Shown here one piece after another: positions 244 to 30,930 of a stretch of 64,000 bases of DNA. The notes beneath the pieces were generated by a model that did not search any database, was not told where the DNA came from, and saw only the letters and a list, made by a program, of their open reading frames with translations. Origin of the DNA: Elusimicrobia bacterium RIFCSPLOWO2_02_FULL_39_32. GTDB lineage: Bacteria > Elusimicrobiota > Elusimicrobia > 2-02-FULL-39-32. Each line of letters opens with the position of its first letter. Position 1 is the stretch's first letter. A program made the position numbers and the translations under genes. The DNA lies in the NCBI GenBank assembly GCA_001800135.1, contig MGUU01000024.1, forward strand, positions 1 through 64,000, read 5' to 3'.

Positions 244-3200
244 ATGATTCAATTTTGGATCCAAAAATATAATAGAAGATGGCTAGCTCTAACCGGAGGG
301 TTGGTTTCGCTTAGCTTTATCTTTACCACGATCAGCGCTCCTTTTGCTCAGGCAAACCTCTGGTCTGAACGCAAGAAGGCTGCGGAAGAACTTCAGTTTC
401 GCAATTCTGGGATTGTTTCCAAAAAATACTCTAACGAAACAACAAAGGATAAGTTAGAACCATGGATGGAGCTTGCATCTAGTGTAGGATTACCCATAGG
501 TCAGTCCTCATCGCTTTTAGGGATGAAACCTCAACTCTCACCAGAAATCATAAAGCAGGTGATGAGTAAAATAAAAACTCGTCAACAAAACAAATCTAGC
601 AAAAAATCTCAAATTCAATTATCTCTTTCTTCAGAATTACTAACTCGCATAGACTCTTATGGGGCGATAGAGAAAGTAAATTTAGTGAAAGGGGATCATC
701 TAGTGATCTTTATTCAAGATGCGCATGGAATTACAGGGGTTCAGAAAAATATAGCTCATTTACTAAAAGAGCTCACAGAGATGGGAGTAGGGTTGGTTGG
801 AGTTGAAGGATCTTCCGGGAAGCTGGAGGGGTTAGAGAAATGGAGAAGTTATCCGGATAAAGAGAGTTTAATGGGAGTTGCTGGCTATTTGTTGGAGAAG
901 GGACTGCTAACAGGAGTGGAAGTTGCAGGGTTGTCTTCCAAAAATGCGGCATATCAATACACGGAGTCAAGGGGAATTGAAAGCGGACATGGGGACAGTG
1001 TGAGATCGGCAGTTAATAGAACAGGTGTGGAATACTATGGGGTGGAAGACAAAGAAAAATATTTAGAGCAAGTGAAATCATTTAAGGATACCTTGAAGAA
1101 TGAGAATAGAGTTCGAGATTGGGTATTGGGTATTGGGAAAAAAATAAAAGAGTTAAAGCAACTGTTCTATACAGTAGAGTTAAAAGAATTGGATGAAAAT
1201 AAAGAGGGATATGAAAAAGGAGAAAAAACATTAGGGCAGTGGCTTGAATTCTTATCTAAAAAATATGGAGAGACGAATTTACAATTTCCCAATATTAGCA
1301 GATACCTCAATGCGTACCATCTGGAGAAAGAGATTAATTTTAAAAAGGTTAGCGAGGAACAAAAACAACTTTTAGAACAACTTTCAAAGCGATTGAGTAA
1401 AGAAGAATTAATGGGTTTATTAGAAGAAAGTTTGTTGTATCGGTTAGGAAGGATTGAATACAGGGATTTTTATGAAGGAATTCAAGAGAGATGCAAAAAA
1501 GCAAAAGTTCAGATTACGCCTGAATTAAACAAATATATACAGTATGTGGTTGGTGTAGGGGGAATTGATCAAGGAAATTTGTTTGTAGAGGCTAAAAGAT
1601 TCGAGGAAAAGGTCATTGCTCGGTCAATCCAAAAAAATATTGATTTGCAGCAGTTAGTAGAGCTGAATAAAGATTTCCGTTTATTACAGAAAGCTCTTGA
1701 TTTTAGGCTGACTCCTGAGGAGTGGGAGGAATATAGTAAAAGAGAAGAAGATATAAAAAGGATAGGGCAGAGGATTCATGAGATAAGCAATAAGGGTCTT
1801 CAAATTAATCAAGAAAATAAAAATGATCTATCTTTTTTATCTAGGGTCGCATTTCTCAAAACAATATTTGGGTTTAAGGATGGCATTAAAAATGAAGGTC
1901 TAGCCGGCATATCTCAACCAGTAGAGGAACTGTTAAAGAATGTGAGTAAGTTCAATCGTCTCTCACATGAGAGAAACCATATTTTTGTGGATAAGATAGT
2001 CTCTAGATTTAATGATCATCTGGAACAGAACTCTCATCCTTCTCCACGGATACGCAAATCTCAGATTATAAACCCAAAGAATCAAGCTCTGATAAGCGAT
2101 AACAATATCAGTGTTCTTGTAGCCGGGGGTTACCATAGCAAAGGCATAGAGCAAATCTTAAGAGATAAAAATATCTCCTATATCATCATCCGTCCACACA
2201 TGAACCTGCAAGAGTTGAATGAGACTGGAGTGGGAAACAGCGCAAGTGTAAGAGGTCAGCTAAAGCAAGGGTATCATCCGCTGAATGTATTTAGGAAAAA
2301 TCTTCTCCCATTAGAAAAAATGTTTTTGCCGGAAAAAGTGAGTTTAGCTCCGGAACCGAATTTGGCCGGAGGCAGGAATGCTCAAGGGGCAGTTTTAGTG
2401 GAAAACAGTTTGGAGGTAATCACTAAAGGAATTGGTTTATCCGAAGATAAGTTGAAGGAGACAGAGACTAGAAAAGGAGCATGGGAGGGAGATTTCTTTA
2501 GCGCAATAATAGAACAGAATGGCAGACGTTATCGGATTTGGACTCCGAAGAAAAAAAATAAAGAGGCAAATAGATTAATTGTTGCGGATACGGAAAGAAC
2601 ATTGGAATCTTTAAAGTCATTTAAGAAAAGAAAGATTGAGGCAATGGAACTTGCGGAACTAAATAATATTTTTGATTCCAACCAGGAAAAAAGAGGAGTG
2701 GTCATTGCGTTAGAAAAGCAAAAGATATTAGAGAGGGCAAGAGCCCGTATTTTCGTTCCATTAGCTGGAATGATCGGAAGGAGAATTCAAAGAGTTCGCA
2801 AGTTTTCATCCGGAGTTGTTGGGTCGGTTCTTACATTCGGAAGCCTAGCTTTAAACGGAGACGGCGGTTCTAGTGTAGATGGCAATCTGTCTGATGAAAA
2901 TTTGGAAGGAATTGCATCTCAGGCTTCTATCAGCGTACAAACCAGAGCAAACTCAACTGAACTCCTTTCTGCTCCCTTTGAGAACCACTCCCTGAGCATT
3001 AAAGAAATTGTAAATCCTCAAGATCAGCCAGACTTAGTTGGTTTGTATGCCGGTTCGGATGCAGACATCACTACTTTTTTGCTTGCTACAAACGTACAAA
3101 ATGCTGTTTATATTGACATGACGCCTGTATATTTCTCAGAGTTATGTAGAGCTATTAGAGTTATTAAAGAAGACTGGAACAAAATTACTTTTGATGATGA

Positions 3201-6200
3201 GTATGCAATAAGTAAGAGATCCCATGGCTTTAGCTCTGGCGCATTCGGAGGAGATATCCATTATCAGATTGCTCAAGAGCTAAAGAGTTTAGGAATAAAG
3301 CCAGAACGAATTCAAATTGCCTCCAATCAGGGACACGCACAAATCATTTTTCCTTGGACCCATCCCAGTTCAAAAGCAGAAAAAATTTATAGCATAACAT
3401 TTGTGGAAGTGAATCTTGTGCAGATTGAAAATGATTTCGATGTGCCGCCATTCCTAAATGAGTTATTTCAAAAAAGGATTGATATTTATTACCAAAGAGG
3501 CGCTTTCCTTTTTCTGGGGTTTTACACCAAATTTTTACGGCGTTTAATGTCTTCTATCGTAAAAGAAGGCGGGTATCTCGTTGTTGATGATATGGAATTG
3601 CCCGTGCCGGCATTTCAACCTGAGGCGGGAGAGTCGAGCATTCTTGAGAAGATAAGCTCCAGCCGGTTAAATTATTGGAGGGATGTTCTAAAGTCAATAC
3701 TTAGAGATTCTTATGGCTGGAATCAATCTGTCTATTTAAAGAAAACCATATCTCAACCTGCGGAGGATAAAACTCAATCACTGCGCCACAAGTCCAAGAC
3801 CGGCAGAGCGTCTCCTAAAAGAAAAAATATTATTCCAGGGATCGCCATTGGTCTTGTTTCATTGGGCTCTTCATTGAGCAGGTTTATTTACATGATCATT
3901 ATGGGCTCACTTGCTGTTATGGGGATTGTGGGGATGGGGTCTGACGCGGGAGTCGGAGGCGTGGAAAGCGGTGGAGCAGGAGGTGGAGGTACTGGAGGAG
4001 GTGGAGGCGTAGGGGGCGGTGGAGCGGGCGGAGTTGCAGACCCAGGTACAGGTACAGAAAGCGGCGGTGGAGGAGTAGGAGCGAGATTTGCTGCGCAAAA
4101 TTTTGATGTTGTTTCTCAGGCTATTCTTCTTGAACTCGACGCCCGCTATGGGTTTGTAGAGGAAGACCATCCCATTTATAGTTATGCAAATCAAATATTC
4201 CAGAGGATATTGGAGCAGACTAAAAGTAAAGATGGGAGTCGTCCGCGGCTTTATATTTTTAAAGATAAAATGGTCAATGGTTTTGCGTTGCCAGATAAAA
4301 GCGTGGTCCTTGGTTTGGGGATATTGGATTTGGTTCATACAGAAGATGAACTCGCTTCCGTATTTGCGCATGAACTCACTCATGTGGAAAGAGAACATCA
4401 TTCTGATCTCTTGGAAAATATTAAAAACGGAAAGTGGACGCTTAAAGAGAGAATCGGCGCAGGGCGCGCTTATGAAGTGGATGCCGATTTTATTCCTCCC
4501 GTCGCGATCTTGGGCCAAGCGGGTTACAACCCTTTAGCCGGCGAGACTCTGTTTGAGCATATGCAGTCGGAGGAACAAACCGAGAAGTGGGACTTGGAAC
4601 ATGGCAGCCTCGAAGATCGAAGGCTCAATCTATTGTCTTTGCGGTATCTGATAGATCTTAAAGGAATTGAACGGCTGCAGAAACCAGTTGATTCAAGTTG
4701 GAAAGAGATGGTTCGAAAGAAAATTGAATCCCTGCCGGAGATTTCCGACTTCAATGCGGCTAAAGAAAAACTGCTGAATGCGGATGAAGATCAAGTGAAG
4801 GGGTTGATTGAAAGATTGGTCGAGCATAAAGACCCTAAAGCATGGATTTTATTGCGAGAGGTTTTATCTGAGCTTCACAAAGAAGTGCTGGATGAGACCT
4901 CAAAACAGCAGATCGAATATAAAGCGATCTCCAACCCGCATCAAGTTGGCCCGTCGTTTAGCTCTTATCCGCAGTATCGTTTGACGGTAAAGGTGGATAA
5001 AGAATTGGAAAGAAAATATAAGACCGTCTCCCGCATTCTTTCTAAAATTTTTAATGACCTCATTCCTTCGCAGTTTCCGCAGATTGAAGGGATCGCTGAG
5101 AGAAATAATATCTTGGGAAGTTTGCTCCTCTTTGGTTTGGGCATAGATATTTTTGATCGCTACCGATATACGGGCAACGATCCTCATCAAGATGTCTGGC
5201 TGATTCGCCGGATCTCAGGCGAGGAATCCCAAGACCCTTTTTCCTTCTATTTAGTTGACTATGATCTCGGCGTGCCGAGCTTTAAAAATTTCTATATTGG
5301 CCAACAGTTTACGATAAATCTTATGGATGAGGACGAACCATTTGAAGGAATTATAAAAGCGCTCGACCCAGGAATTTTTCATTCTCTGGGGATTTATACT
5401 CTTCCTTCGAAAGGATTTTGGCAAGATGAAACCAGTTTACTTAACCTCATTAAGTATGCGGTCTCAAAGGATGTGGGTCTTTTTTATGATCAAGGGACAG
5501 GAAAATTCAATTTTCAACTCTTTTTTGAGCGGACGGACCGGCTAATACAAAAATTTGTCGAATTTAACCGCGCTTTTGGGAATGATTCGCTGTTAGCGGA
5601 GCATATCTTTGATAAGAGGAATCATATTTTGGATGAAGAAGGGCTCTTTGACCTATTGGTGGAAGATTATAAATCCCGCGGGTTATGGAACGTGGAATCC
5701 ATGCTCAAACTTTTGGGAGTGATTGACCGCGGCCAAAAAAAATTGTTGGAAAAATTTATCTTTGAAACTTCTCTCTTAACCAAAGAAGATCGAACCAAAG
5801 AAGAAGATCTCTTTTTAATGCTGGCGCTGGGTCAAATGAGGCTGCTTCCTCTCACAGAGGTGAGAGTCCGCGCCTCCAGCAAAGCGGAGGGGCTTAAAGT
5901 TCTAGCGGACATCAACCAAATGATGGTTGAGCTTGAGAATAGTCTAACACTAAATAAGCGGCACAGCGCCCATGTATTGTTTGTGGCTTATCTTGCTCAG
6001 CATGGTCCCGCCCAGTTTCTCCTTGATTTGGAAGGGTTTTTTAAAAATGTGCCGATGTTGCAAAAAGGCCGTTTCTATTCCATTTTAATCGAGCAGGTGA
6101 TCGCTCCTACGATGATTGAAGTTTCCCATTTAAGTGGAGATTCCCTCCGATTTTTACATGAGAATATTTTGGAAGTTCTTCACGGTTTCTTTGATATGTC

Positions 6201-9200
6201 TCTGCGGGAATTAGGCGGTAACATGGGCTGGTGTGTAGAATGCCTCAACCGCATTCTCTTTTATTTGGGCGATATGGACCAAAAATTTAAGAAGTTTAAA
6301 TCGTTGACCCTTCTTCGGTATGTCGGCGATCTGATCTCTCCTAAACCCGGTGTGTCCATGGATCCTCGCGATAAGGTTCTCACGCTCTACTGGATTCATT
6401 ATTTATTGCTTCAGGTTCTTTCCGACTGCGTTGGTAAAGGGGATGATGCCGCCGCTATGGAGACCTTAAGATGGGCGAACCGAAATTTGCCGATCAATCT
6501 CTTTAAGACAGTTTCTGATCCCATAACGATGTTTGTTGTGGATGGGGTGGATATGGAACCCTCAGAGATCGCTCGTCGTTTTCAGGATGTGATTGCGCAT
6601 TTATCTCCTCTTAAATCAAAGCCTCTCAACGAACTTTCCAAAGATGAGCTGGAATCGCTCTTGGAACTCACAAGCCTCTTTAGAGATCCAGATTTGCGCA
6701 GGCAGGTGCAGGATTACGTTATGAACCGGCTTCTTTCGATGTCGGATCTTGGCTCCGCAATTCAGCGGTTGTTCCACGGCGAATACATTGGAAGGTTTTT
6801 AAGGTTTGGCTTAAACAGTGTGAACTATTTAGTGGAGGAGATCGCTCAAACCGTAGAGGATTTGGAAATGGTGAAATCTGAACTTTTAGAACTTTATAAA
6901 ACTGAGGGAAGATCCAAAGTGGGCGTGCTTGTGATGCTGGAAGGCACTTTAAAGTATTGCTTCGAGCGTTCTAGACAGTTCATGCATGCGGCGCTGGCGA
7001 CAGATCAGGATGAAGCTCCCTTGTTAGATTTAGGTCTGGAAGAATGGTGGTCCAGGCTGTTTACGGGCGGAATTTTAAAAAATCATTTAGACGCGACTGC
7101 TCTTGGATACATGGAGGATCCCAAAGCGATCGAAGCTTGGATCACTGAAACGATAATTGACGCAACCTCAGCCGGAAGAAAGAAGCCGGTTAACCTCGCG
7201 GATTTGGAAACAGAAATGGAGGGGGATGGCATGGAAGAGAGCGGTTTTAATCTGAGAGGTCCGGATATTAGTGGATTAATAGGAGTTAGCGCCACAGCGC
7301 AAAAACTCTACGATGCCGGCGTCATAGAACTTCAAGTGATTTTAAGAAAGATGCTCACAGATTCAAAAAGCGGCCTTTTGCGCAATAAAGAGTCTGCCAT
7401 GGAATTGGCTTCGTTCTATTTGGATCAACATGTGGATGTTGCGCAAGCCCATCGGCCCGCGATCAAGCAAATTTTAAATTCTTTAGTCTGCGCGGCTAAT
7501 CTTGAAGAGCTTTATCATCCGCTTTCTCATCTATTGGCAGGGGCGATTTTAAGGAAGCCGGAGGAGAGGGCAGATGTCCGCCTTGTTGTTCGAGAGTTTC
7601 TAATGAAACAAGACTACTTCAACCGCCCCGTAAAAAAAGGAGAAGAGGGGGAAGAAGAAAAAACGATTTGGGAACGTTCATTAAAAGTACCTGTGATCAT
7701 TGACGGACGCGAAATTTTAACTGAAGGCGATGCTCTCGTAGAAAAGGTGGTTCGATGGGCGTTTGGCGAGCAGACGATTGCAGAAGCTAACAATAGCGCA
7801 GAGCGGGAAATTTTCCAAAATCTGCCGGAAGAATACCGAAGGCCTCAGGGCGGCGGTAAACTCTCCGAAATGGAGGCGATAAAAGAATTAGGCCAAATGT
7901 TGGGCGCCGTAGGAACTCGGCTCTTGCAGGTGCTGGGCCAATACATAGAGATCCCTGAGGAGATGCAGAGAGAGTTTTCACAAGTGTACGATGACATCAA
8001 AGGCCAATCTAAACTTTCCGCTTACGAAACCATTAAAAGAGAATGGCCAAACTTCAATGATAAGTTGGTTCGTCGTTTGGGCGGCGGTTCATTGGTAACC
8101 GCCTATCTTGTAAAACGCGCGGACGGATCTCAATATACTTTAAAAGTGTTGAACCCCAATGCGGAATCCCGCATTCGCGAGACCATTGATCTTATCAACC
8201 GTGTGTTGGACCATCTTTTAAATGAGGATCCAGAAAATAAGATTTATCAGCTTGTAAAGAATCATCTTCTTCCCGATATCGAACGCTGGCTTTTAGCGGA
8301 TATCCACGATAATAAGTTTATGGAGAACGATCAGAAATTTAAAAAAGCGTATCACGGTTGGACGGACGGATCAGCCCATTCTATCTATGTTCCGCAATCT
8401 TTTGCTCCCAACACCTATTATTTGAAAGCAGAGGAATATATAAAAGGGATCAACCTCACTCAGATTACGATTGGGGATCGCGATGATTATAAAAATGGCG
8501 TAGTGACTCAGTCCACCTATCAGAATATTATCAGTTTAATTTCTAAAAACTACATGGCGCAGGTGAATGGCAAGTTGGGTCTCATCCATTCTGATGCGCA
8601 TGAGGGGAACTTTCGATTGATGCCCGATGGCCGGCTCGCCGTGCTGGACCGGAATTTTTACATCGAGCTTTCTAAAAAGGATCAAGATTTAATTCGAAAA
8701 TTAACTAATGTCTCTTGGTTGGAAATAGCGAAAGCAGGCGGACAAAAGGATCAGATTGCTCAAGACAAGTTAGATCAGTTGCTTGATTATTTATTTAGTT
8801 TTGAAGAAAACAGTGGAGTGAAGGGCAATAGAAAAGAGATCACTCAAAGAATATTCCAGGCATATCAAGAAGAGGAAAAGTTAGAAAAGTTAATGACTGT
8901 GGAAGGTTTATCTAGTTTGATTGTAGAGTTAAAGAAGGAAGGGCTGTTTCTGCCGCTTCAATTGACTTTGCTTTTTAAGAACTTAAATGCCTTAAACGGT
9001 ATGGCAAAGAAAGCGGGATTCACTAATCTCGCACAATCCCTAAATCATAAATCTGATATCATATCTTCCAATGGCGGATATATCTATTGGGTAAGGGATT
9101 GGGTTTTGCCGCGCGTCTCTCAAGTGAGAGGGTTCTCTTTCCTTCACAAATACACTGACCCTGAAAAATATGAGAAAAACGCATGGTGGATTGAGAATAG

Positions 9201-15200: not shown

Positions 15201-18200
15201 GCAAACCATGGATTCGGTTTATGATCAAATTCTTAAAGAAGACGAGCCCTTGCTGCAAGAAGAAGATTTTGTGAATTTCTTAGTTGGGGATGCGCTCTTT
15301 ACTCGAATAATGAATCTGGTTTTTTTAGAATCTTATTCATTGCCTCAAGCAGTGAGCGAGATTCAGAAAGGGATTGAAAGCCGAGAGATTTTGAAAAACA
15401 TCATCATGGCAAATATTCGCGATGGTCAACTTCCTGAACTGTTTGACATGAGAGAAATGCATAAACATCTCCAGCTCAAGTTAAATTCATATTTGGGCAA
15501 GATACAAAATCAATCTCCTATTTCCTTGTTTATAGAGATATGGACAACGCTTCGATTTTATGAAAATAAGATCGCATTTTTTATGGAACAATCAAAAATG
15601 TCTGCAAAACCTGCAGCTGAACTGTCAGCTTCTCCCTCGCTGATTAGCGAACAGACAAAAATTTCTCAAGAACCTGCGATTAAGTCATCTCTTTCTTCTG
15701 CAGGGATCCAAAAACAGGGTAGAGATCTTAGGGTTAAGAACCTGTCTGATCAAGATGCGAGTGATCTAATGTCAAAATTAGGACGGGGTTTAGAGATTAA
15801 TGACGCGCTAAAATTTGCTCCAATCAAAATTGGGAATCGTACTTTTGAAGTCGAATCCTATTATTCGGATGAGTATTTAATGCGTCTCTTGAGAATCGGG
15901 CCCCTCATCTTTATTGAAGTTCCTGGCCATCTATACAAAGAAATGAATATGGATCCTCAAATTCTGAATGAGAGGCTGCAACTTCTAAAGATGCATTTGG
16001 GCCACGATTATCTAGAAAATCAGGGGAACATTTTCTTTACAAGGCCGTCCAGGTACAGCGCTGCAAAGTTGTCTGAAACTGAATATAGTGACGAGTCGCC
16101 TGTCTTTAATCTGTTGCAGTTGAATCCTAATACAATGCTTGCGATTGCGGCGATGCTGGCTTATCCCGAACAGTTTGAAAATGAAATATTTCCAGATTAT
16201 GGGGCAGGGGATGGTCTGCTCTCAAGAGTGGCGTTGCGCTTAGGCGCGTCTCAGGCGGTTCTGTTTGAACTGGATACTATAGAATTCGAAAGGGCTAGAG
16301 TTTTTTTGAAAGATGAATGCCGAGTGGAAGCTAATGGCTCAAACGATGGCGACTATCGTATTTTAGTAGAAGATCTGCGAGATCCTTATTTTGCAGATAA
16401 GTTTAAGAATGACGATAGAATCAGAAACACTCGAATAGGAGCAGCTAATCTAGGTTCCCCGGATGCTTATGCGAATGCAGATCAGAATGTCATTGATCTC
16501 ATACTGCAACTATCCGAGATGAAATTCTTTATCAGTGCTGGATATAACGCCAATTATCCATCGGACGAGGCTGCTCTTATGGATACCATTAACAGGGTTA
16601 AGGGATCTGGTTTTCAGATAGAGCCATTTGAATATTACTTTTTAGAAGGAACAAACCATCAAGATTTTATTAAGAGCGCTCCACAAAAGCAAAATAGTTT
16701 TAAGGGGTTCATCGCTCTTCGGCAAACTCCGCCCATAACCGTAAACCAACCAAAGTCAGACAGTGTGGCTCAAAATTTACTAACAGAGGAGGAAGGCTCT
16801 TCAACCCCAGCTAAATGGAAAAGGTTTGGTTTGATGGTTATTATGGGTTCCCTTGGCGCAGTAGGAATGGGATTTGGATCTGGATTAGGAGGTGGGGGGG
16901 TAGGAAAAAGTGGTGGTGGCAGTGGAGCAGGCAGAGAAGAAGGGGCAGGTACAGGAGGAGGCGGTGGAGGAGGAGAGAGATTTAAACCTAAAAAATCTAT
17001 TAAAAAACGAGATCCTGTTAGTCAAGCTCAAAGAATTTTGGATAAAATTGAAAAAAATAAGGGGTTGAGTGTTGCTAAACAAAGAGCATCTCTAAAGGCG
17101 CTTCAGAAAGTTGTGGTAAAAGAGCGATTCTTAAAAAATGTTAAACCTCCTTTAATGAGAAGAATTGTTCGAAATATGATTCCTTATCTTAGCCATGAGG
17201 AGTTTGTTGAAGTAGAGAAAGGAGTTCTTTATCGTACTTATAATGATCTTTTTGGAGAGGCGGAAAAGATTTTAAATTCCATGGTTTTATTAGGGCCTAT
17301 AGCTGTTTCCGATCGCATGATTCAGATTTTAATGCAAGTGATTTTAAGCCAAAAAAGGGAGATTCTCGAGCGGGTGACCACAGCGCAATACATGTTATTA
17401 GTTCTCCTAGAAGAAATTCTTTTTTATCGGCGCGCTCTTAAAATTCCAGTTGTCTCTGAATTAAAAAAATTTCAGGCAGAAAAAAAACGAATTTTGCGTC
17501 ACCAAAAACAAACTGGTTCATTATCGCGCGCGGTAATTCGTTCCAAAATTGCAATTGAATCACAGGAGCAGCGGCTTTTATATCTTGTCATGGATGAACT
17601 CCAGCATATTAAAGCCTGGATGAGAGAGCATAAACGTTTTTCCAAAGGAACAGATCCTCTTGGAGATTTTATGATCAGCTTGGTTATTTTACGCGCATGG
17701 TATCTTTTTTTAACAGAGGTCTCTTATTTAAAAGAAAATTTGGGGGTAAGGGATTCCTCCTTTGCTAAACTTTTAAGTGATTCGGATGTGACAGAAGCAA
17801 GAGTTGTGTTTCAGTCCGTTGCAAAGAATCTTTATAAATCATTCCTTTTTTCCGATGGGGTAGTATCAGAAAATATAGTCTCTATGCTCAGCCTAGAAGA
17901 ACCAGAAGCTCAGAACTTTTCTTCCATCTTTCAAGATATTACAGCTTCTGCGCTTTTTTTGGTGATTGGGATCAAGAACCATTTGATACATAATTTGAGA
18001 ATGCTTTCGCTTAAAGATAACGAACTTTCTGACTTGCAAGCAAAGGAACTGTACAAATTTCTTATACGATTTTTAAAAGACGCGGTTCTTTATTATTCAG
18101 TTGTTTTTTTTCACGATCTTGGCTGTGTTCGACAGGTAAGAGAAATGAGGAGAGAAATAAAAAATTCTCTTCAGACTATTCCTTGGGAAAAATATTTTTT

Positions 18201-21200
18201 ATCTCTTACTCGGCCGCTAAGGAAGCTGATCAAAAGATTGCCGCCTGACCAACAGCTTGTTTTACTAGGCTCCTTAGAGAAACTTTATCTTTCCATGGGA
18301 TCTGACCATGTTTCATGGGAAGCAGTGAATCATATTCATGATCTCCTGCCGGATGATTCTAGCCGAGCCTCCTTTTATCTTTTAATTCCAGAAACGATTT
18401 GGTTTGTAGGAGGAGATCAATCTCTTTTTAGGGATATTTTAGAGAGCGCAGAACTTCGGCAGCCAGATGCAATATTGGATTATCTTAAAATTGAGGTGCC
18501 TCAACTTTTAATGGCAACCCGTGGAGACTTCGAAAGATTTAGAAGAGCGATTTGGGAGGAGCTTTATGGTTTTTTCCTTCTAGCTTTAAGCGATGAAAAA
18601 GATTCTCTCTCTTCAAGCCATGTAAGAGACGAGCTTGGTTCAGAAGAATCAGGCGGGGGTAGAGAAGATGAGGCTGGTCCGCCCGGTGGGCTGATGTTTT
18701 GGGTAAGGGATTGGGTTTTACCAAAACATTTGAAAACAACTCTTTCGCCCTTGCAATATCGGAAGGATGCTTGGTGGTTTGAAAACTCTTTATTTTATAT
18801 CTACGGGGCTCCTCTTTATCTTTTATTTGTGAGTTTGAAATTTTATGTAACAGGAACTTTTAATTTGGATTTTAACGAGTATCAAAATCTCCTATGGTCT
18901 TTTTTCTTTGCAGGACATATTTTTGATCTTTTCTTAAATATCTTTAGAGCCAAAGCAGAACGCGCTCCGCCTCTTAACATTGTTTTTGCAGGAATCATCA
19001 GCAGCCTCAATATTTTCTTAATCCCTTATTTTCAGCTTCATCCTATCATTGCAGTTGTTTGTTCTTTCTTTTCCCATTATATTGTTAATCATATTATTAA
19101 ATATCTTTTTCCTTCCACTTTTGTAGTGCTTTCACTTTTGGGAGTTGTAGGTGTGCCTCATGGTAGCGGCGGCCGACCCAAAAAAGATGTGGATGTAGCC
19201 AAGAAGGGAAAGAATGGGAATGTTTCTAATAATTACAGAAGTGGCTGGCTAGATTTCTTGATGACAAGTTCTAGAAAAGCGTCCATAGATAGTCCCAATA
19301 AAGCACACATGTTCGATAAATTTTTGCGCTTCCAGCTCTCAGGCATGAGTTACGATACAGACAAAACTTTCATTTTAGAGAGGTGGAAAAAATATTCAAA
19401 GATTCTTTTAGAAAGAGGCTCAACTAGCCAAACTCCTTATTCAGCTATCCCTATTACTTTTCTTTCTCCTGCTTTTGTAGAGCATGCGATTGCTGTTAAA
19501 AGAATTGTAAATCCTGAAAATCGCGCTTTAGTGGGAATTTATGGAGCAGCAGGTGGAGATTTCTCCTCTTATTTGCTTGCAACCAATGCCATTGAAAGTT
19601 ATTTTGTGGATAAGATCGCAGTGGATTCGAAAAAATTAGAGAGGCTAATAAAAGATAAATGGGATTCTATTCCTCTTGATACAATTTACGCAAAGCATAA
19701 ATGGTATGGTGGATTCGCTCACTTTAGCACTATTGAAGATATTTATGAAATAATTATCCAAGAATTAAAGCTGATTGGGGTTGAAAAAGAAAGCATTGAA
19801 GTTACAGTTGAGCAAGGAAACACAAAAATCAGTTTTGATTGGCAGCATCCTGATTCAAATTTTAAGCAGAGATATCATGTGACCTATATCAATGCAGATA
19901 TTACTGAGATCGGAAGCTCAACACTTTTAGAGTCCCATTCTTTATTAAATTGGGTTCTGCAGAATGGGATTGATCTTTACTATCAACGAGCTGCTCAAAC
20001 CGTTCCATTTGAATATCACAAATTTATGTGGCGAATTGGCAAAGCATTGAAAGTAGGCGGCTATACTGTGAGCGACGATTATACAAGTAGTGGTTTATAC
20101 ATTGATCCTACAAGACATCTTATGATGGGAGGTTCTAAATTTAGCGCGCCTATTATTACTAGAGAATTAGATTCTATAAAAAGAAGAATCCCATACCGTC
20201 TAGATGGCTATGGTTGGGATCTCACAATCCGAAGGAAAGAGAGTGATCTTCCATCTAATCGTATACATGGGAAGCGAATTTCCTTTTCGGATTTTAGAAG
20301 TTCTTTATCTGACAATACCCTACATGAACCTCTCTCTGGAAATCTATTAAATCCTAATCATGGATCAGATTCCACTCTTGTTTCTATAGGTGATAAAGGT
20401 TCAGCAGATATTCTACCACCTGAAGACGATAGAGGTGAAGTAGCACTTTTACCATCTGATTTGTCTAAGATTCAGGATCCATCTACTATATTTAGTTTAT
20501 CAAATCATACTGGTGTTTTATCTGTTCCTTATGAAGAACATGCAAAAGCTGTAAAAGAAGTTGTAAACCCAAACAATAACCCTTCATTGGTCGGACTTTA
20601 TGCAGCTGCAGGAGCAGATTTATCATCCTTCTTATTATCTACGAACGTAGAAAGAGCTTATTTTGTGGATCAGGAATGGATCAATCCAATGAAATTATCT
20701 AGAGCGATTGAGGATTATTGGGATACTATTTCGTTTACCGATGACTATAGTCAATATAAAAGAGAAAATGGTCATGCATATTATTTAACTATGGGAGATA
20801 TTCATAAGAGGATTGTGCAAGAGTTAAAAGGATTGGGAGTGCGTAAGGAGACTATTGATGTGCAAGAGGTGGATGGTTATACAACCATTAGTTTCTTTTG
20901 GACTTATCCTGGCAGCAATATGGAAAGAAGATACTCGATTACCTATATTAAAAAAGATATGACAAAGATTTATAAACCAGGACATTTAAGACCGGATTCT
21001 CTGCTTTATAAAGTCTTAGATCAAGGTATTGACATTTATTATCAAAGAGCAGGAATGAATATGGAGTCACATTATTTTAAGTTTCTCTGGCGCATTGGCT
21101 ATGCTTTAAAATTAGGAGGATATGTCCTTAGTGATGAGTATCTAGACGATGGAGAATTATATTATTGGCTTGGAGGTACAAAAGTAGAAGATGTGAAATT

Positions 21201-22296
21201 TAGTAAATTTATCGTTACTGAACTGATTCAATCTTGGGTTGAGTTTATAAAGAGATACAAAGGCCAGGGCGAGTATGGCTGGAACATGAAGATTTACAAA
21301 AAAGAAAAAGATTTAAATCTTTCTAAAGCAGAAAAAGATGAATTAATTCAACAATTAAGTCGCATATTAGAAGAGAAAGAGAGCCTTGATAAAAAATCAT
21401 TTACAAACATTCTTGTTGTAGGTCTTGGCGCTCTCTTGGCTTTTACAGTTTTAGGATTCCTGCCAATTCCAATGGAAGCAGCGCCGCTTTTAACTAATGC
21501 TTCACTTGGGTTTGATCCCTTTACGCATTGGTTCAACTGGGCAGATCGTTATCTGCTTTCTAATTCATTTTTATCTGCCGCCTTCATTATTACTCCGCTT
21601 CTGGCAGTTGTTAGAAGAAGAGAACTGGGATCGTCATCGTCATTTTTTAATGATTTAAGACTTGTGCCGTACGATCATGAAGCTCAAGAACGTATTAATC
21701 GCAAATTGCACAATGAAGAAGGACAAGAGCGTATTCATCATAAATTGTATGACCAAGAGGATTATGACCGCATCAGTCAAAGGTGGATAGATGGAGAAAT
21801 TTCTTATCTTCCATCTGGTATTCGAACGCTTGATCTTAGCGATGTCAAACAAAATCAAAATGTACAAAGCCGTTTACAGCTTGAGCTTGACCGCGTTGCA
21901 AGAGGGGATGGAATTTTAGCTTTGACTGCAAATTGTGAGCCTATAAAATTGCTGGAGGAGATAAGAGAAACTATAGATTCAGATCAGTTTGCGTTGTTGG
22001 TAGAAGCGATAGAACAAAACAAGATTTTTACAGTTGTGGATAGCGAAGCTCCAGATAAAAAAATCCGTATGGATGTAGTGATCGCGCAAATGAATGAATT
22101 GGGTTTAATCGGTCCTGTGGAAGTTCTTACCAATGATCATTCTCGTTTTATCTTAAGTTTAGGCACAATGAATTTAGTAACAATTATAGAATTGCTGTAC
22201 GAGAACATGGGCAGAAGTTGGATAAGTCCTAAACAGTTTGATGAACATTTAGAGAAAGAACATGAATTGAATGCGCGCGTTAAATCCAGCGCTTAA
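244..22296 (+). CDS. GIANT-1: 7,350-residue exported multidomain protein (M48 protease, ABC1-like kinase, methyltransferase-like modules)
   Basis: A signal peptide ends near residues 33-37 (FAQA then NLW). Residues about 140-660 form an unrecognised domain with QDAHG (H161), GVEG (E188) and GGYH (H631), perhaps distantly like ChaN/EreA/TraB folds. Shared VGLY-YYQR-YGW modules lie at about 912-1165, 6410-6665 and 6762-7020. An M48-type zinc protease site is complete: H1376-E1377-x-x-H1380 and E1411 in YEVDAD. An ABC1/UbiB-like kinase spans about 2600-2820 (glycine loop near 2613, HSDAHEGN at 2782-2789, VLD with D2802). A methyltransferase motif I, DYGAGDG, starts at 5318; another Rossmann-like stretch lies near 4540-4700. 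Two related membrane domains start near 2948 and 6151. Hydrophobic GSLxxMG segments precede glycine-rich linkers. No frameshift is seen. Giant ORFs are known from Omnitrophota; the role of this one is unknown. Confidence 0.85.
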   Translation: MIQFWIQKYNRRWLALTGGLVSLSFIFTTISAPFAQANLWSERKKAAEELQFRNSGIVSKKYSNETTKDKLEPWMELASSVGLPIGQSSSLLGMKPQLSPEIIKQVMSKIKTRQQNKSSKKSQIQLSLSSELLTRIDSYGAIEKVNLVKGDHLVIFIQDAHGITGVQKNIAHLLKELTEMGVGLVGVEGSSGKLEGLEKWRSYPDKESLMGVAGYLLEKGLLTGVEVAGLSSKNAAYQYTESRGIESGHGDSVRSAVNRTGVEYYGVEDKEKYLEQVKSFKDTLKNENRVRDWVLGIGKKIKELKQLFYTVELKELDENKEGYEKGEKTLGQWLEFLSKKYGETNLQFPNISRYLNAYHLEKEINFKKVSEEQKQLLEQLSKRLSKEELMGLLEESLLYRLGRIEYRDFYEGIQERCKKAKVQITPELNKYIQYVVGVGGIDQGNLFVEAKRFEEKVIARSIQKNIDLQQLVELNKDFRLLQKALDFRLTPEEWEEYSKREEDIKRIGQRIHEISNKGLQINQENKNDLSFLSRVAFLKTIFGFKDGIKNEGLAGISQPVEELLKNVSKFNRLSHERNHIFVDKIVSRFNDHLEQNSHPSPRIRKSQIINPKNQALISDNNISVLVAGGYHSKGIEQILRDKNISYIIIRPHMNLQELNETGVGNSASVRGQLKQGYHPLNVFRKNLLPLEKMFLPEKVSLAPEPNLAGGRNAQGAVLVENSLEVITKGIGLSEDKLKETETRKGAWEGDFFSAIIEQNGRRYRIWTPKKKNKEANRLIVADTERTLESLKSFKKRKIEAMELAELNNIFDSNQEKRGVVIALEKQKILERARARIFVPLAGMIGRRIQRVRKFSSGVVGSVLTFGSLALNGDGGSSVDGNLSDENLEGIASQASISVQTRANSTELLSAPFENHSLSIKEIVNPQDQPDLVGLYAGSDADITTFLLATNVQNAVYIDMTPVYFSELCRAIRVIKEDWNKITFDDEYAISKRSHGFSSGAFGGDIHYQIAQELKSLGIKPERIQIASNQGHAQIIFPWTHPSSKAEKIYSITFVEVNLVQIENDFDVPPFLNELFQKRIDIYYQRGAFLFLGFYTKFLRRLMSSIVKEGGYLVVDDMELPVPAFQPEAGESSILEKISSSRLNYWRDVLKSILRDSYGWNQSVYLKKTISQPAEDKTQSLRHKSKTGRASPKRKNIIPGIAIGLVSLGSSLSRFIYMIIMGSLAVMGIVGMGSDAGVGGVESGGAGGGGTGGGGGVGGGGAGGVADPGTGTESGGGGVGARFAAQNFDVVSQAILLELDARYGFVEEDHPIYSYANQIFQRILEQTKSKDGSRPRLYIFKDKMVNGFALPDKSVVLGLGILDLVHTEDELASVFAHELTHVEREHHSDLLENIKNGKWTLKERIGAGRAYEVDADFIPPVAILGQAGYNPLAGETLFEHMQSEEQTEKWDLEHGSLEDRRLNLLSLRYLIDLKGIERLQKPVDSSWKEMVRKKIESLPEISDFNAAKEKLLNADEDQVKGLIERLVEHKDPKAWILLREVLSELHKEVLDETSKQQIEYKAISNPHQVGPSFSSYPQYRLTVKVDKELERKYKTVSRILSKIFNDLIPSQFPQIEGIAERNNILGSLLLFGLGIDIFDRYRYTGNDPHQDVWLIRRISGEESQDPFSFYLVDYDLGVPSFKNFYIGQQFTINLMDEDEPFEGIIKALDPGIFHSLGIYTLPSKGFWQDETSLLNLIKYAVSKDVGLFYDQGTGKFNFQLFFERTDRLIQKFVEFNRAFGNDSLLAEHIFDKRNHILDEEGLFDLLVEDYKSRGLWNVESMLKLLGVIDRGQKKLLEKFIFETSLLTKEDRTKEEDLFLMLALGQMRLLPLTEVRVRASSKAEGLKVLADINQMMVELENSLTLNKRHSAHVLFVAYLAQHGPAQFLLDLEGFFKNVPMLQKGRFYSILIEQVIAPTMIEVSHLSGDSLRFLHENILEVLHGFFDMSLRELGGNMGWCVECLNRILFYLGDMDQKFKKFKSLTLLRYVGDLISPKPGVSMDPRDKVLTLYWIHYLLLQVLSDCVGKGDDAAAMETLRWANRNLPINLFKTVSDPITMFVVDGVDMEPSEIARRFQDVIAHLSPLKSKPLNELSKDELESLLELTSLFRDPDLRRQVQDYVMNRLLSMSDLGSAIQRLFHGEYIGRFLRFGLNSVNYLVEEIAQTVEDLEMVKSELLELYKTEGRSKVGVLVMLEGTLKYCFERSRQFMHAALATDQDEAPLLDLGLEEWWSRLFTGGILKNHLDATALGYMEDPKAIEAWITETIIDATSAGRKKPVNLADLETEMEGDGMEESGFNLRGPDISGLIGVSATAQKLYDAGVIELQVILRKMLTDSKSGLLRNKESAMELASFYLDQHVDVAQAHRPAIKQILNSLVCAANLEELYHPLSHLLAGAILRKPEERADVRLVVREFLMKQDYFNRPVKKGEEGEEEKTIWERSLKVPVIIDGREILTEGDALVEKVVRWAFGEQTIAEANNSAEREIFQNLPEEYRRPQGGGKLSEMEAIKELGQMLGAVGTRLLQVLGQYIEIPEEMQREFSQVYDDIKGQSKLSAYETIKREWPNFNDKLVRRLGGGSLVTAYLVKRADGSQYTLKVLNPNAESRIRETIDLINRVLDHLLNEDPENKIYQLVKNHLLPDIERWLLADIHDNKFMENDQKFKKAYHGWTDGSAHSIYVPQSFAPNTYYLKAEEYIKGINLTQITIGDRDDYKNGVVTQSTYQNIISLISKNYMAQVNGKLGLIHSDAHEGNFRLMPDGRLAVLDRNFYIELSKKDQDLIRKLTNVSWLEIAKAGGQKDQIAQDKLDQLLDYLFSFEENSGVKGNRKEITQRIFQAYQEEEKLEKLMTVEGLSSLIVELKKEGLFLPLQLTLLFKNLNALNGMAKKAGFTNLAQSLNHKSDIISSNGGYIYWVRDWVLPRVSQVRGFSFLHKYTDPEKYEKNAWWIENSLFILFLGVPSFIFLYLFIGHDLLFAFRTANLITWSAFLLGHTFLVAGIFGSRAPPENFWRASIISLISIYVGFGFTPTTFYSTDPYLSLISIPTVLMISYFVHFIVNIFPKIWKIVVLSSAVSLLSLLSAKGVVALLQEITIDSLSEAILIEVVMFFASLYGFGYLVFNRIYSRAQKGNETILKILPWRAHLISFVVNAIGAVVLLALVMSISSSDLDLIYKTFPKLFSFYTLVAHAIPYVIFYTAGRYQDLFYPSSDKEGGGGGLKKILIGKHPSVTLEDNLELVRIAEALKIDEIESEPINGKKIRHKLVKYKKGDDDQAYKILAKYKNIDGAYHYIHPITKVRYVFVQEGFESEDFARKHELYEIYWEEKLGLKGKIAQRLYHIFAWINQLAAENITSIDQLPFLKRQIEDMGMFELDYFVNEDRKEHKKYRAVDKKGGSYFKSLVDAKIVSAGQMKNVEKFEASVHEYSERRLKEKFGLDAVVSESQRDAAVKKAEHADQLGYSVNDVARALKMTEIAYIEQILSRLYSGHLLLIRSSELKALCDVFDALISRGPNPSPNLRAKRLTEADPSFSSRAEPIAKDGKLLSSPDSSSPPPTAARGTLSRLGKDESPPPSETPLAAQTNKDVAVQLPARVEERGSAGSQTSASVLRRAERKAKKFKEVQELRARMVNIPSHMQTVRFYPFEYLLEVAKKRLGKSRTIPAQFIVVGKDMQIPGIHQFVAILNNWFDVAYFLHGIELDQISQHTRFRYSFIISKSSGRSPISYESAQILLEALKALLPEEKEKRVEVELKEGMEIPPAPPIQSANFAVGEINPPQLTDPEKSLLPESPPALATPVKKLEVVVDPAHPIQSLNPVSEPAPSPITSEETSAQRGVTAGDILEWVTGALESKDETPTELDRMEQFIRDLRTRRYKLRTDEIKKSEKISDTSPLLMPIDLEQELTKTGLSQEAIDLIRKHSITIYDFLEDVLKAKTKDGVVIELTFPRYVMDALVLVSGLLRKKIDRFRSSLRRITKKNVEKVSEFFDLITIESEQPIFFFIGGFFKEKYFLLLYLFLQNPERMKNVRFVFGVDRAVQKLYSAPGYLTAHDEIPIWADIFRDFNLYSQEGDHNKKQRLRANDLKRNLMGRLNRDIRRNQGLVPDEEGSAKVELGAIVGLIAVGVLLIIQNPMGAGIFANPISWLILLYAAFRLIPRKYRSLVAIGSLAAMGLVGMSGGLGAGGIGKPQKRFIRKIGELLAAVETLQHSDYKNVPQELGLSGKGSEEFLLLAQSMELSKGYTVSAVEAAAKFVRAHFTEFENTPFKPGKFLRELNDERGLREKEEERLRLQSAGLIQRQIVPTAIQRQTLPADIQRQTSLPDIEEFLMDIGMGSDYIRRIKSNPELLKMILQDPDIARLFSGRGEKKRGQKIGAVAQRQALPTEIEECLLKGGFGVEAVAFLKIALPSLEHLGLLIERAIMIGDVNVCVARFMERYPLEESLSMDSVLYRKALKNVVKFANESESNAFARRFTEIAAEKAAELHHAGTRENQQLPHRPSSSKPSDSEKEGSNLYVDLTSGSRFLVYMDSLRNDLNYHLIDSSFFVTVFLNKMLELLGKKNVTVVQQDIALLEYNTGSVGTIHVQNLGNFFIGSSVFWDRVSLWLEEGGQIIFQVDPTALVRDRNFPMVDNIYRDLIEKEGWGFEYKVGVYNDKLSQMTLDTFVFTKPRAGKRLESRQTLEDYLREVQIDLRHSMQPLTVLALRAFHRAFHAMLLFRAEKEFNGDPRMADIPVLGDVLDIQFNRLLYENSTVHQVVSKHRPLNVDTAELYFTVDRAALYTASYLYKRVQELSRIASGLLDPQSILNKLMEEMAKTSEIIGRIGIHAKDEYGEPHFEDVQGAIPPSLFMEKRNIEDLLEGALAAGNASKEALNHALAHTKIKLWMTPILLHKRFDLILKHFWDKDSKLHALKAIEGFDRNEPYGQLSYSTSLRDLKNELRVRIREEMSDIEPRFNYEHLQTMDSVYDQILKEDEPLLQEEDFVNFLVGDALFTRIMNLVFLESYSLPQAVSEIQKGIESREILKNIIMANIRDGQLPELFDMREMHKHLQLKLNSYLGKIQNQSPISLFIEIWTTLRFYENKIAFFMEQSKMSAKPAAELSASPSLISEQTKISQEPAIKSSLSSAGIQKQGRDLRVKNLSDQDASDLMSKLGRGLEINDALKFAPIKIGNRTFEVESYYSDEYLMRLLRIGPLIFIEVPGHLYKEMNMDPQILNERLQLLKMHLGHDYLENQGNIFFTRPSRYSAAKLSETEYSDESPVFNLLQLNPNTMLAIAAMLAYPEQFENEIFPDYGAGDGLLSRVALRLGASQAVLFELDTIEFERARVFLKDECRVEANGSNDGDYRILVEDLRDPYFADKFKNDDRIRNTRIGAANLGSPDAYANADQNVIDLILQLSEMKFFISAGYNANYPSDEAALMDTINRVKGSGFQIEPFEYYFLEGTNHQDFIKSAPQKQNSFKGFIALRQTPPITVNQPKSDSVAQNLLTEEEGSSTPAKWKRFGLMVIMGSLGAVGMGFGSGLGGGGVGKSGGGSGAGREEGAGTGGGGGGGERFKPKKSIKKRDPVSQAQRILDKIEKNKGLSVAKQRASLKALQKVVVKERFLKNVKPPLMRRIVRNMIPYLSHEEFVEVEKGVLYRTYNDLFGEAEKILNSMVLLGPIAVSDRMIQILMQVILSQKREILERVTTAQYMLLVLLEEILFYRRALKIPVVSELKKFQAEKKRILRHQKQTGSLSRAVIRSKIAIESQEQRLLYLVMDELQHIKAWMREHKRFSKGTDPLGDFMISLVILRAWYLFLTEVSYLKENLGVRDSSFAKLLSDSDVTEARVVFQSVAKNLYKSFLFSDGVVSENIVSMLSLEEPEAQNFSSIFQDITASALFLVIGIKNHLIHNLRMLSLKDNELSDLQAKELYKFLIRFLKDAVLYYSVVFFHDLGCVRQVREMRREIKNSLQTIPWEKYFLSLTRPLRKLIKRLPPDQQLVLLGSLEKLYLSMGSDHVSWEAVNHIHDLLPDDSSRASFYLLIPETIWFVGGDQSLFRDILESAELRQPDAILDYLKIEVPQLLMATRGDFERFRRAIWEELYGFFLLALSDEKDSLSSSHVRDELGSEESGGGREDEAGPPGGLMFWVRDWVLPKHLKTTLSPLQYRKDAWWFENSLFYIYGAPLYLLFVSLKFYVTGTFNLDFNEYQNLLWSFFFAGHIFDLFLNIFRAKAERAPPLNIVFAGIISSLNIFLIPYFQLHPIIAVVCSFFSHYIVNHIIKYLFPSTFVVLSLLGVVGVPHGSGGRPKKDVDVAKKGKNGNVSNNYRSGWLDFLMTSSRKASIDSPNKAHMFDKFLRFQLSGMSYDTDKTFILERWKKYSKILLERGSTSQTPYSAIPITFLSPAFVEHAIAVKRIVNPENRALVGIYGAAGGDFSSYLLATNAIESYFVDKIAVDSKKLERLIKDKWDSIPLDTIYAKHKWYGGFAHFSTIEDIYEIIIQELKLIGVEKESIEVTVEQGNTKISFDWQHPDSNFKQRYHVTYINADITEIGSSTLLESHSLLNWVLQNGIDLYYQRAAQTVPFEYHKFMWRIGKALKVGGYTVSDDYTSSGLYIDPTRHLMMGGSKFSAPIITRELDSIKRRIPYRLDGYGWDLTIRRKESDLPSNRIHGKRISFSDFRSSLSDNTLHEPLSGNLLNPNHGSDSTLVSIGDKGSADILPPEDDRGEVALLPSDLSKIQDPSTIFSLSNHTGVLSVPYEEHAKAVKEVVNPNNNPSLVGLYAAAGADLSSFLLSTNVERAYFVDQEWINPMKLSRAIEDYWDTISFTDDYSQYKRENGHAYYLTMGDIHKRIVQELKGLGVRKETIDVQEVDGYTTISFFWTYPGSNMERRYSITYIKKDMTKIYKPGHLRPDSLLYKVLDQGIDIYYQRAGMNMESHYFKFLWRIGYALKLGGYVLSDEYLDDGELYYWLGGTKVEDVKFSKFIVTELIQSWVEFIKRYKGQGEYGWNMKIYKKEKDLNLSKAEKDELIQQLSRILEEKESLDKKSFTNILVVGLGALLAFTVLGFLPIPMEAAPLLTNASLGFDPFTHWFNWADRYLLSNSFLSAAFIITPLLAVVRRRELGSSSSFFNDLRLVPYDHEAQERINRKLHNEEGQERIHHKLYDQEDYDRISQRWIDGEISYLPSGIRTLDLSDVKQNQNVQSRLQLELDRVARGDGILALTANCEPIKLLEEIRETIDSDQFALLVEAIEQNKIFTVVDSEAPDKKIRMDVVIAQMNELGLIGPVEVLTNDHSRFILSLGTMNLVTIIELLYENMGRSWISPKQFDEHLEKEHELNARVKSSA

Positions 22297-29331: not shown

Positions 29332-30930
29332 TTAGAGAAGACCATGTTCTTTTCTAAAACCTGCCGGATCCACATCCCGAGTAAAAGATTTTGGCGGCTT
29401 GCCCAGAAGGATCATCAACTCTTGAATGTCAAAAATCCCATAATGTTCATCTGTAAAAGCTACAATTTTGGAACGGGTCTGAGAAATTGTATTGAGGCGG
29501 AATCTCCGAATTCCTTCTTCTGTGAGCTTCTGCCCCAATTCGGTGCGATAGGCATTAGTCAGATTGTACATGCATAATGTCAAAACGGCGTGAGCCGTCA
29601 CGGCTCGCTCTGTTTTCTTTGGGATCTTATTGATCAGCCATCCTTGTTTGAGTTCCCGGTTGGTTGTATTTTCAATAAGGCTGCGCCAATCGTATTTGTC
29701 GATAATTCCCAATGGATTAGACACTCCCAACGATGTCAAAAAAACCTTCTCATGTCCGGGATCGTAGTCTCTGCCATTCCAATGTGTCACCATAACCACA
29801 TGGATGGGATTGCCTTTGAAATCCTTGGCATGCGGATTTTTTTTCTGATGCTCCTCATCTCCATATTGATCATAACTGGTCAGTCCCAAGATCCCTACTA
29901 CCTTTAAGTTCTTGCTCTGCTGCCGGAAAATGATCTTCGGATCTTTCCCATCCCTCAAACCGCGCGCATCCTTGGTCACTGCCATGTCAGTGCGCGCTGG
30001 AATAATCCAGTCGATATGATAGGTATGCTTTAAGATCCAAAGAGTCAAACCATCCAGATAGCCCCTGTCGATTAGAAGCAGTTTGATCCTGCCAGATCCT
30101 ATGTTTTCTATGGCTTGCTGGATCAATGGCAGCGTCCAATTCTTTTCGGATTCATGTATCTGCGTGACCTTGGCCGCCACGATGATTCGCGAATCCAGGC
30201 TCCGCAGCAACATCAACTTGAATCCAAAGGTTGTTATTGAAAGGGTCACCAGTCTTTTCTCTTTGCGGCTCCAGACTTCTTTGTCTACCGTCTTGCGTCC
30301 TGCCCCTCCGCACTTCTCTGTGGTTGGTAGGTCTGTGGCATCCATCAAATACGTCCGATCCTTGATAAATCCTCGCTTGGACAAGAGCTTAACCCCTCCA
30401 TTTAAAATACCCTCTAACTCCCGGGGTGAAAAACGATCCAAAGCGTCGGCAAGGGTGTCTTTATGCAAGGGACGATTTTTCTTCCCTTGGCCTCTTTTGC
30501 AGTGTCCATTCTCGATCTGTTCGGCCGTGTAGCCCAGCATCATGAGCAACCCAATATCCCCAAACAGTAATCTTGGCACTTGATTCATCGAGTTTATGCC
30601 CATCAGAATCTTTATCTGGTATGTCAAAAGCAGTTTGGCAATGGTAATCATTCTCCGCGCGTATCCTTCCCCAGCCACATCCAAGCATTCCAGAAATCCA
30701 ATCGTCTTGATGAAGATTAAAAACTTGTCCAGAAAACCCCACCCCCCATGCTGGATCATGCGATAATCTCCTTTCACAATCCGTTGGGCGACCTCCTTCT
30801 GGTCTCGGGTCAGATGCCTCCACGCCAAATACTGGCGGTTCTTCCGCGCAGCTCGGCGCTGTCCGCGCTTGCGCGCCTGCTCCCGGTCCCGTTGATCCTT
30901 AACTGCCTGATTCCTTTTTTTACGGGCCAT
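29332..30930 (-). CDS. IS4-superfamily DDE transposase
   Basis: This 532-residue protein has a catalytic triad in the expected contexts: D197 in LMDATDLP, D288 in LLIDRGYLDG and E420 in YDWRSLIEN, which resembles the IS4-type YxxR...E signature. The long stretch between the second D and the E fits the beta-strand insertion of this superfamily. The N-terminus is very basic (MARKKRNQAVKDQRDREQ) and could bind the inverted repeats. The start overlaps the end of the upstream accessory ORF by 11 nt, suggesting coupled translation. The frame is intact. The closest named IS group (for example IS1634-like) cannot be decided here. Confidence 0.85.
   Translation of the reverse strand: MARKKRNQAVKDQRDREQARKRGQRRAARKNRQYLAWRHLTRDQKEVAQRIVKGDYRMIQHGGWGFLDKFLIFIKTIGFLECLDVAGEGYARRMITIAKLLLTYQIKILMGINSMNQVPRLLFGDIGLLMMLGYTAEQIENGHCKRGQGKKNRPLHKDTLADALDRFSPRELEGILNGGVKLLSKRGFIKDRTYLMDATDLPTTEKCGGAGRKTVDKEVWSRKEKRLVTLSITTFGFKLMLLRSLDSRIIVAAKVTQIHESEKNWTLPLIQQAIENIGSGRIKLLLIDRGYLDGLTLWILKHTYHIDWIIPARTDMAVTKDARGLRDGKDPKIIFRQQSKNLKVVGILGLTSYDQYGDEEHQKKNPHAKDFKGNPIHVVMVTHWNGRDYDPGHEKVFLTSLGVSNPLGIIDKYDWRSLIENTTNRELKQGWLINKIPKKTERAVTAHAVLTLCMYNLTNAYRTELGQKLTEEGIRRFRLNTISQTRSKIVAFTDEHYGIFDIQELMILLGKPPKSFTRDVDPAGFRKEHGLL

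Follow-up and report, generated by a model that had tools for sequence, protein, structure and literature searches.

A predicted exported giant protein of the Elusimicrobiota carries a conserved composite of an M48 protease and an ABC1-like kinase

Huge proteins of more than 5,000 amino acids (aa) have been described from Elusimicrobiota before (PMC11573180), and a giant open reading frame (ORF) as such is therefore not new in this phylum. The giants of Elusimicrobiota and Omnitrophota (PMC11573180; PMC10066038) exceed 5,000 aa, contain transmembrane (TM) segments and are poorly annotated. The same papers stress poor conservation, and their accessible parts describe no shared TIKI-like N-terminus, C-terminal motif or M48-ABC1 module. 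In this work we focused on GIANT-1, a protein of 7,350 aa encoded at positions 244..22296 of a stretch of 64,000 nucleotides (the window) from Elusimicrobia bacterium RIFCSPLOWO2_02_FULL_39_32 (assembly GCA_001800135.1, contig MGUU01000024.1, positions 1 to 64,000). By its length and its presence in an Elusimicrobiota genome it fits the known class of giants. New are two ends shared throughout its family and a conserved module joining an M48 protease to an ABC1-like kinase. Neither was found described in the literature searched, which for the M48-ABC1 fusion did not include subscription papers and bioRxiv, and this is not proof of absence.

A search of the whole of GIANT-1 with the Pfam and NCBIfam profiles left nothing above cut-off besides M48 and ABC1, in agreement with an earlier sequence-only reading of the window, which could name no family for large parts of the protein. 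Peptidase_M48 (PF01435, 41 bits against a cut-off of 20.3) covers aa 1287-1459 (4102..4620; this and all further features of GIANT-1 lie on the + strand). ABC1 (PF03109, 39.8 bits against a cut-off of 22.9, within a range of 39.8-44.8 bits in the ABC1 test) covers aa 2546-2822 (7879..8709). The key residues listed in that reading are all in place, namely HELTH at 1376-1380 (H1376, E1377, H1380) and EVDAD at 1411 (E1411) in the protease, and HSDAHEGN at 2782 and VLDRN at 2800 with a GGGS loop upstream of both in the kinase, which retains the Lys, D2784, N2789 and D2802. The M48 zinc ligands (HExxH and the distal Glu) were invariant in 11 of 11 aligned modules, and K89, D239, N244 and D257 of the kinase (numbering of alignment A11) in 10 aligned modules. 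The nearest solved relatives of the protease are 3c37 and BepA.

The two domains occur together well beyond GIANT-1. Giants of the source genome and three relatives contain 11 M48 and 11 ABC1 domains, which form 11 pairs with M48 first in every case. In an independent set of 23 ABC1 domains from long frames on other contigs, nearly all of other genomes, M48 was located upstream in the same ORF for 19, and for 18 of the 20 with at least 1,100 aa readable upstream. The distance from the start of M48 to the start of the kinase was 1,113-1,169 aa in 12 of these 19 and 629-1,649 aa in the remainder; it is 1,259 aa in GIANT-1. The module also exists as a free-standing protein of exported type (family f15), 1,691-1,784 aa long and present in six genomes. 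Profile comparisons between clusters by hhalign indicated clear homology of both the kinase ends (1e-6 to 1e-21) and the M48 ends (3e-4 to 2e-13). Neither GIANT-1 nor the f15 proteins have a TM-like segment between protease and kinase. On this evidence the combination of the two is not a coincidence of long chains but a fixed composite unit in the form of a cassette. Most likely the module is an exported protease that is tethered to the membrane and has a kinase domain attached, for which we infer the substrate, the membrane side and the kinase activity. Three M48-ABC1 pairs in tandem were observed in a giant of 13,470 aa encoded elsewhere in the source genome (L020-L022, contig C16:113629-154041).

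GIANT-1 is read as one frame from an ATG start with zero internal stops. It was compared with a same-genus genome, Elusimicrobia bacterium NC_groundwater_250_Ag_S-0.2um_38_13 (JACPBF01, G007, here called the sister); a further genome, G162, corresponds to Ca. Obscuribacterium magneticum (Elusimicrobiota). The sister ortholog is split across two contig ends, with its start on contig C6 and its end on C23, and the same 838-aa gene comes next after the end of GIANT-1 in both genomes. Identity between the orthologs is 60% over aa 1-1186 (88% over aa 1-700), 70% over 2944-3501, 75% over 3621-5515, 78% over 5582-6293 and 84% over 6710-7350. Ka/Ks was 0.23-0.39 in all tested blocks, and 0.34 in the last 100 aa. 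Because purifying selection on a syntenic ortholog runs to the C-terminus, GIANT-1 as a whole is not an assembly chimera, an artefact that the sequence-only reading had allowed for. The giant frame reported there is thus real, and GIANT-1 is an intact member of a large Elusimicrobiota family.

The stretch bearing both enzymes (aa about 1187-2943, 3802..9072) is absent from the sister ortholog, in which an unrelated cassette of similar length takes its place. Both cassettes are flanked alike, upstream by a TM segment and Gly-rich linker (aa 1210-1266, 3871..4041 in GIANT-1) and downstream by a multi-TM module (WVRDWVLP..., copy 1, aa 2944-3210, 9073..9873), and the reading frame of GIANT-1 is intact across both junctions. 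The GC content is somewhat higher in the GIANT-1 cassette. Parts of the sister cassette resemble the 13,470-aa giant of the source genome, and giant ORFs from other families of the class also contain the M48-kinase module. Sequence comparison shows the GIANT-1 cassette to be a full copy of a composite enzyme, present elsewhere in free-standing form, that consists of M48, a fast-evolving spacer of about 1.1 kaa (thousand aa) and an ABC1/UbiB-type kinase domain. A universal rule of TM segments followed by Gly-rich linkers was considered and rejected, since a scan of 30 long ORFs flagged such segments in no more than about 6.

The N-terminal end begins with a predicted Sec signal peptide (aa 1-37, ...TTISAPFAQA, 244..354), which is in keeping with the export proposed earlier and is of a type common to about two dozen paralogs. 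It is directly followed by a W-ERRKA motif (aa 40-46, 361..381; W40, E42 and R43 at 90-100% in alignment A1) and then by a domain with a helical insertion (aa 140-706, 661..2361). An AlphaFold2 model of this domain, obtained with 82 relatives, had a pLDDT of 83.5 and a pTM of 0.81. Its best structural match was HopBA1 (Z 8.6 over 152 residues); residues 3863-4056 of 6a7h matched with Z 5.8, and by the numbering of PMC6254334 they fall within the catalytic lobe of VvRRSP; HopBA1 and RRSP both belong to the TIKI superfamily (PMC6254334). The profile PF04187 (ChaN, 'Tiki superfamily') matches 11 of the 82 family members (best 3.4e-5) and lies above cut-off in one giant of the sister species. Profile-profile comparison of the N-terminal halves with ChaN gave weak matches (E 0.0014 and 0.27) in the expected register, and PF01963 (TraB) did not mark the giants of the source genome. 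H161, E188 and H631 are invariant in the family alignment and accompanied by D159. Together, D159-x-H161, E188 and H631 mirror the order and spacing of E3900-x-H3902, E3930 and H4030 of RRSP, with Asp for the first Glu. On the strength of the alignment and the predicted model we regard the N-terminal domain as TIKI-like and presumably hydrolytic.

At the other end, a TM pair (aa 7051-7123, 21394..21612) precedes an alpha/beta domain (aa 7186-7350, 21799..22293) that terminates in the family motif, here ...ARVKSSA-COOH. The pattern [QNS][AQ]-COOH ends 25 of the 29 long ORFs with a complete end versus 3 of 228 other ORFs (Fisher p 2e-27, a post hoc value, as the pattern was first noticed on the same list of ORFs). 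It was replicated in the relatives (7 of 12 ORFs of at least 1,000 aa versus 3 of 91 shorter ones) and at other loci (12/32 versus 11/520); another family of the class has the ends ...ISIQA and ...IDIQA. When the count was limited to source-genome ORFs for which a simple rule predicts a signal peptide, the motif was present in 20 of 22 giants versus 1 of 57 smaller proteins. A 159-aa protein (L020, C16:109354-109833) with the family signal peptide and the end ...ETQQ suggests that the motif is not limited to giants. The C-terminal domain gave no confident structural match, all Rossmann/HAD-like rows having a Z under 8. We rejected the idea that the motif is a tmRNA tag, the tag of the source genome ending in LALAA. 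The motif may well serve as a signal for sorting, docking or stability. None of the TIKI/ChaN-like N-terminus, the C-terminal motif and the fixed enzyme pairing had been part of the sequence-only reading.

The N-terminal domain was found in about 21 giant frames of the source genome, 2,000 to 13,500 aa long, which hold in common the signal peptide, the W-ERRKA motif and the TIKI/ChaN-like domain. The 30 ORFs of at least 1,199 aa in the genome stretches examined amount to 149,274 aa, including a few non-members. The domain is present in 69 of 341 genomes of the phylum, and more distant copies occur in Omnitrophota and Auribacter. Other giants bear other enzymes, whose catalytic residues were judged by eye against textbook motifs. 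An exported-type giant of 6,135 aa (L026/L027, C16:232568-250975) contains malate synthase and isocitrate lyase, the latter with KKCGH kept and the only isocitrate lyase found in the genome. Another of 4,084 aa (L039, contig C8:25990-38244) contains TIM and GAPDH domains; its GAPDH keeps SCTT and the TxHxxTNDQ stretch, its TIM has lost the catalytic Lys, and housekeeping TIM and GAPDH genes exist separately in the source genome. A SecA-like motor with DEAD, P-loop and preprotein-binding domains is found in a 4,429-aa giant (L050, contig C25:133994-147283). Further cargo of the paralogs includes phosphoglycerate mutase, an AprA-type methyltransferase, and AceK, PPDK, FBPase, glutamate-dehydrogenase-like, patatin, PP2C and M23 domains. 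Many giant ORFs lie in one same-strand stretch of roughly 270 kb (C16:113629-382980). The window itself contains a second giant of 6,091 aa (57139-63999, continuing to position 75414 of its contig, C24), with a signal peptide, the end ...ITYSA and two copies of a Rossmann-like repeat of GIANT-1; no TIKI-like N-terminus was detected in it.

By sequence, GIANT-1 is a mosaic: its N- and C-terminal ends are common to the family, Rossmann-like and multi-TM modules recur within it, and its middle cassette is not that of the sister. We consider it reasonably probable that GIANT-1 is exported by Sec and tethered to the membrane, with fixed ends and interchangeable middles, its present cassette being an M48-spacer-ABC1 unit in which the kinase controls the protease. 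The chain would be exported via Sec, and its multi-TM modules would hold it in the envelope. Protease and kinase would face the same membrane side and form one working unit with a common membrane-associated substrate. The kinase domain would control access to the protease, or the activity of the protease, by phosphorylation or by an ATP-driven change of shape. Swapping of cassettes between linker-like segments would then provide each lineage with a different enzyme load on a common carrier. Several points weigh against this explanation, the main difficulty being that an exported ABC1-type kinase would lack ATP, so that a location on the same exported side conflicts with an active kinase. The domain could instead be a pseudo-kinase or an ATP-sensing switch, or the chain could reach a compartment with ATP. 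In addition, the GIANT-1 kinase has lost the canonical KxGQ lysine of UbiB (LLQVLGQ; some paralogs keep KLGQ), for which reason we call it ABC1-like and not UbiB, and its Ala-rich nucleotide loop is replaced by LGGGSL. Outside a stretch of about 90-180 aa preceding the kinase, the M48-kinase spacer could not be aligned between clusters by hhalign, and the modules of some other giants have one borderline TM-like segment between the two enzymes. As for the N-terminus, the domain of GIANT-1 itself gets no PF04187 match, and Foldseek on the model gave no E below 1e-3 (E 0.95), its coiled-coil rows reflecting the helical insertion.

An internal protease had led the sequence-only reading to propose self-processing into separate enzymes; the exported chain would be cut by M48 or else by the N-terminal TIKI-like domain. 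The protease residues are intact, K/R-rich, hydrophobic and Gly-rich segments separate the modules, and one stable chain of such length would be surprising. The sister ortholog, however, retains the same backbone without the M48 cassette, and M48 and kinase stay joined across the phylum, mostly about 1.1-1.2 kaa apart and also in the free-standing proteins of about 1.7 kaa, which leads us to favour tethering over separation. No conserved cut site was seen, both GIANT-1 and the free-standing form lack a TM-like segment between protease and kinase, and the linkers that might mark borders are, as said, infrequent among the long ORFs. Release of separate enzymes is not needed to explain the data, is weakened by the M48-free ortholog and stands unsupported; we consider it unlikely, and processing may occur elsewhere in the chain. 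An assembly chimera or decaying pseudogene, which could account for the absence of the cassette from the sister and for its GC content, is very improbable given the frame kept through both junctions, the same 5' linker in the sister, the same module in other families and the purifying selection.

Two further explanations concern the family as a whole. Giants might be effector carriers passed to prey or host cells, whose cytoplasm would give ATP and NAD to the cargo enzymes. This would fit the nucleotide-dependent and metabolic enzymes behind signal peptides in paralogs of a genome with separate housekeeping TIM and GAPDH, the resemblance of the N-terminal domain to a fold that also serves TIKI-type effectors, and the host-associated or predatory lifestyle argued for related phyla in PMC10066038 and PMC11573180. 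Unlike the MARTX/RTX giant toxins, however, GIANT-1 has no match to RTX repeats or an internal cysteine autoprotease in the Pfam and NCBIfam searches of the whole protein, and its multi-TM modules suggest anchoring in the producer. We regard such delivery as doubtful, to the same degree as self-processing. It is less likely still that the giants are a sink of fused, once-separate genes, kept to build the envelope or a coat, most of the embedded enzymes being inactive. The cassette is of the same size as the free-standing protein, one embedded TIM has no catalytic lysine and motif I is altered in the Rossmann-like repeats, but the M48 ligands and the K, D, N and D of the kinase are invariant in all aligned modules, GAPDH SCTT and isocitrate lyase KKCGH are retained, and Ka/Ks speaks for constraint.

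Other parts of GIANT-1 include repeated elements. Rossmann/methyltransferase-like repeats lie at aa 897-1168 (2932..3747), 6396-6675 (19429..20268) and 6747-7030 (20482..21333), and the second copy of the multi-TM module at aa 6140-6306 (18661..19161). A TM and Gly-rich segment is located at aa about 4191-4215 (12814..12888) and a TM segment with Gly-rich linker at aa 5528-5580 (16825..16983). The methyltransferase motif I reported earlier does exist, as DYGAGDG at about aa 5300 within aa 5260-5440 (16021..16563); the surrounding region scored 17.3 bits with the PrmA profile, below the cut-off of 22, so the assignment is a weak motif match only. A search of PDB sequences with the C-terminal half returned weak matches to Cys-loop channels (E 0.005-0.04), judged to be chance. 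The neighbouring ORFs are ordinary bacterial genes for a sugar nucleotidyltransferase/phosphomannomutase, a CsgG-like protein, homoserine dehydrogenase, aconitase and a fumarate-reductase-type flavoprotein. A DDE transposase gene (PF01609) lies at 29332-30930, between the giant and the housekeeping genes.

Giant bacterial proteins are usually called poorly conserved and unannotated, whereas the GIANT-1 family has defined ends and a testable N-terminal fold. Only tentatively do we extend the interpretation to a dedicated family of giant exported carriers in Elusimicrobiota. Its members would combine an N-terminal TIKI-like hydrolase and a C-terminal recognition tail with whole enzymes inserted as exchangeable cargo (the M48-ABC1 machine, isocitrate lyase with malate synthase, TIM with GAPDH, the SecA-like motor). 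If true, this would mean regulated proteolysis and metabolism outside the own cytoplasm or inside a partner cell, and the C-terminal tail could be the handle for an export or quality-control machine. With the module comes a question, namely how a kinase can function as part of an exported protein, and the other cargo widens this from GIANT-1 to the role of the whole family. As cassettes of the GIANT-1 type also occur as free-standing proteins of ordinary size, the role of the giants can be tested directly at the bench with the M48-ABC1 protein of about 1.7 kaa.

Among known systems, the plant plastoglobule likewise brings an M48 protease (PGM48) and ABC1 kinases (ABC1K1/K3) to one membrane-associated site (PMC12587418). 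They are separate plant proteins without fusion, and we take the plastoglobule as a parallel and a lead, claiming no common origin of the arrangement. With M48 metallopeptidases of the HtpX/BepA type the protease of GIANT-1 shares HExxH, the distal Glu and the NA and terminal His motifs, and it differs from them by lying inside a giant chain with a kinase about 1.1-1.2 kaa downstream. The kinase resembles the ABC1/UbiB/COQ8 atypical kinases in its PF03109 match and in the retained Lys, catalytic Asp, Asn and metal Asp; it differs in its exported context, in a Gly-rich instead of an Ala-rich loop, in the missing KxGQ lysine and, in some paralogs, in H/L variation preceding the catalytic Asp. 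Finally, the N-terminal domain appears to have in common with the TIKI superfamily (ChaN, Ere esterases, HopBA1 and RRSP) the core alpha/beta fold and the D/E-x-H ... E ... H spacing, and is set apart by Asp for the first Glu, by a helical insertion of more than 300 aa and by its position at the N-terminus of giant proteins.
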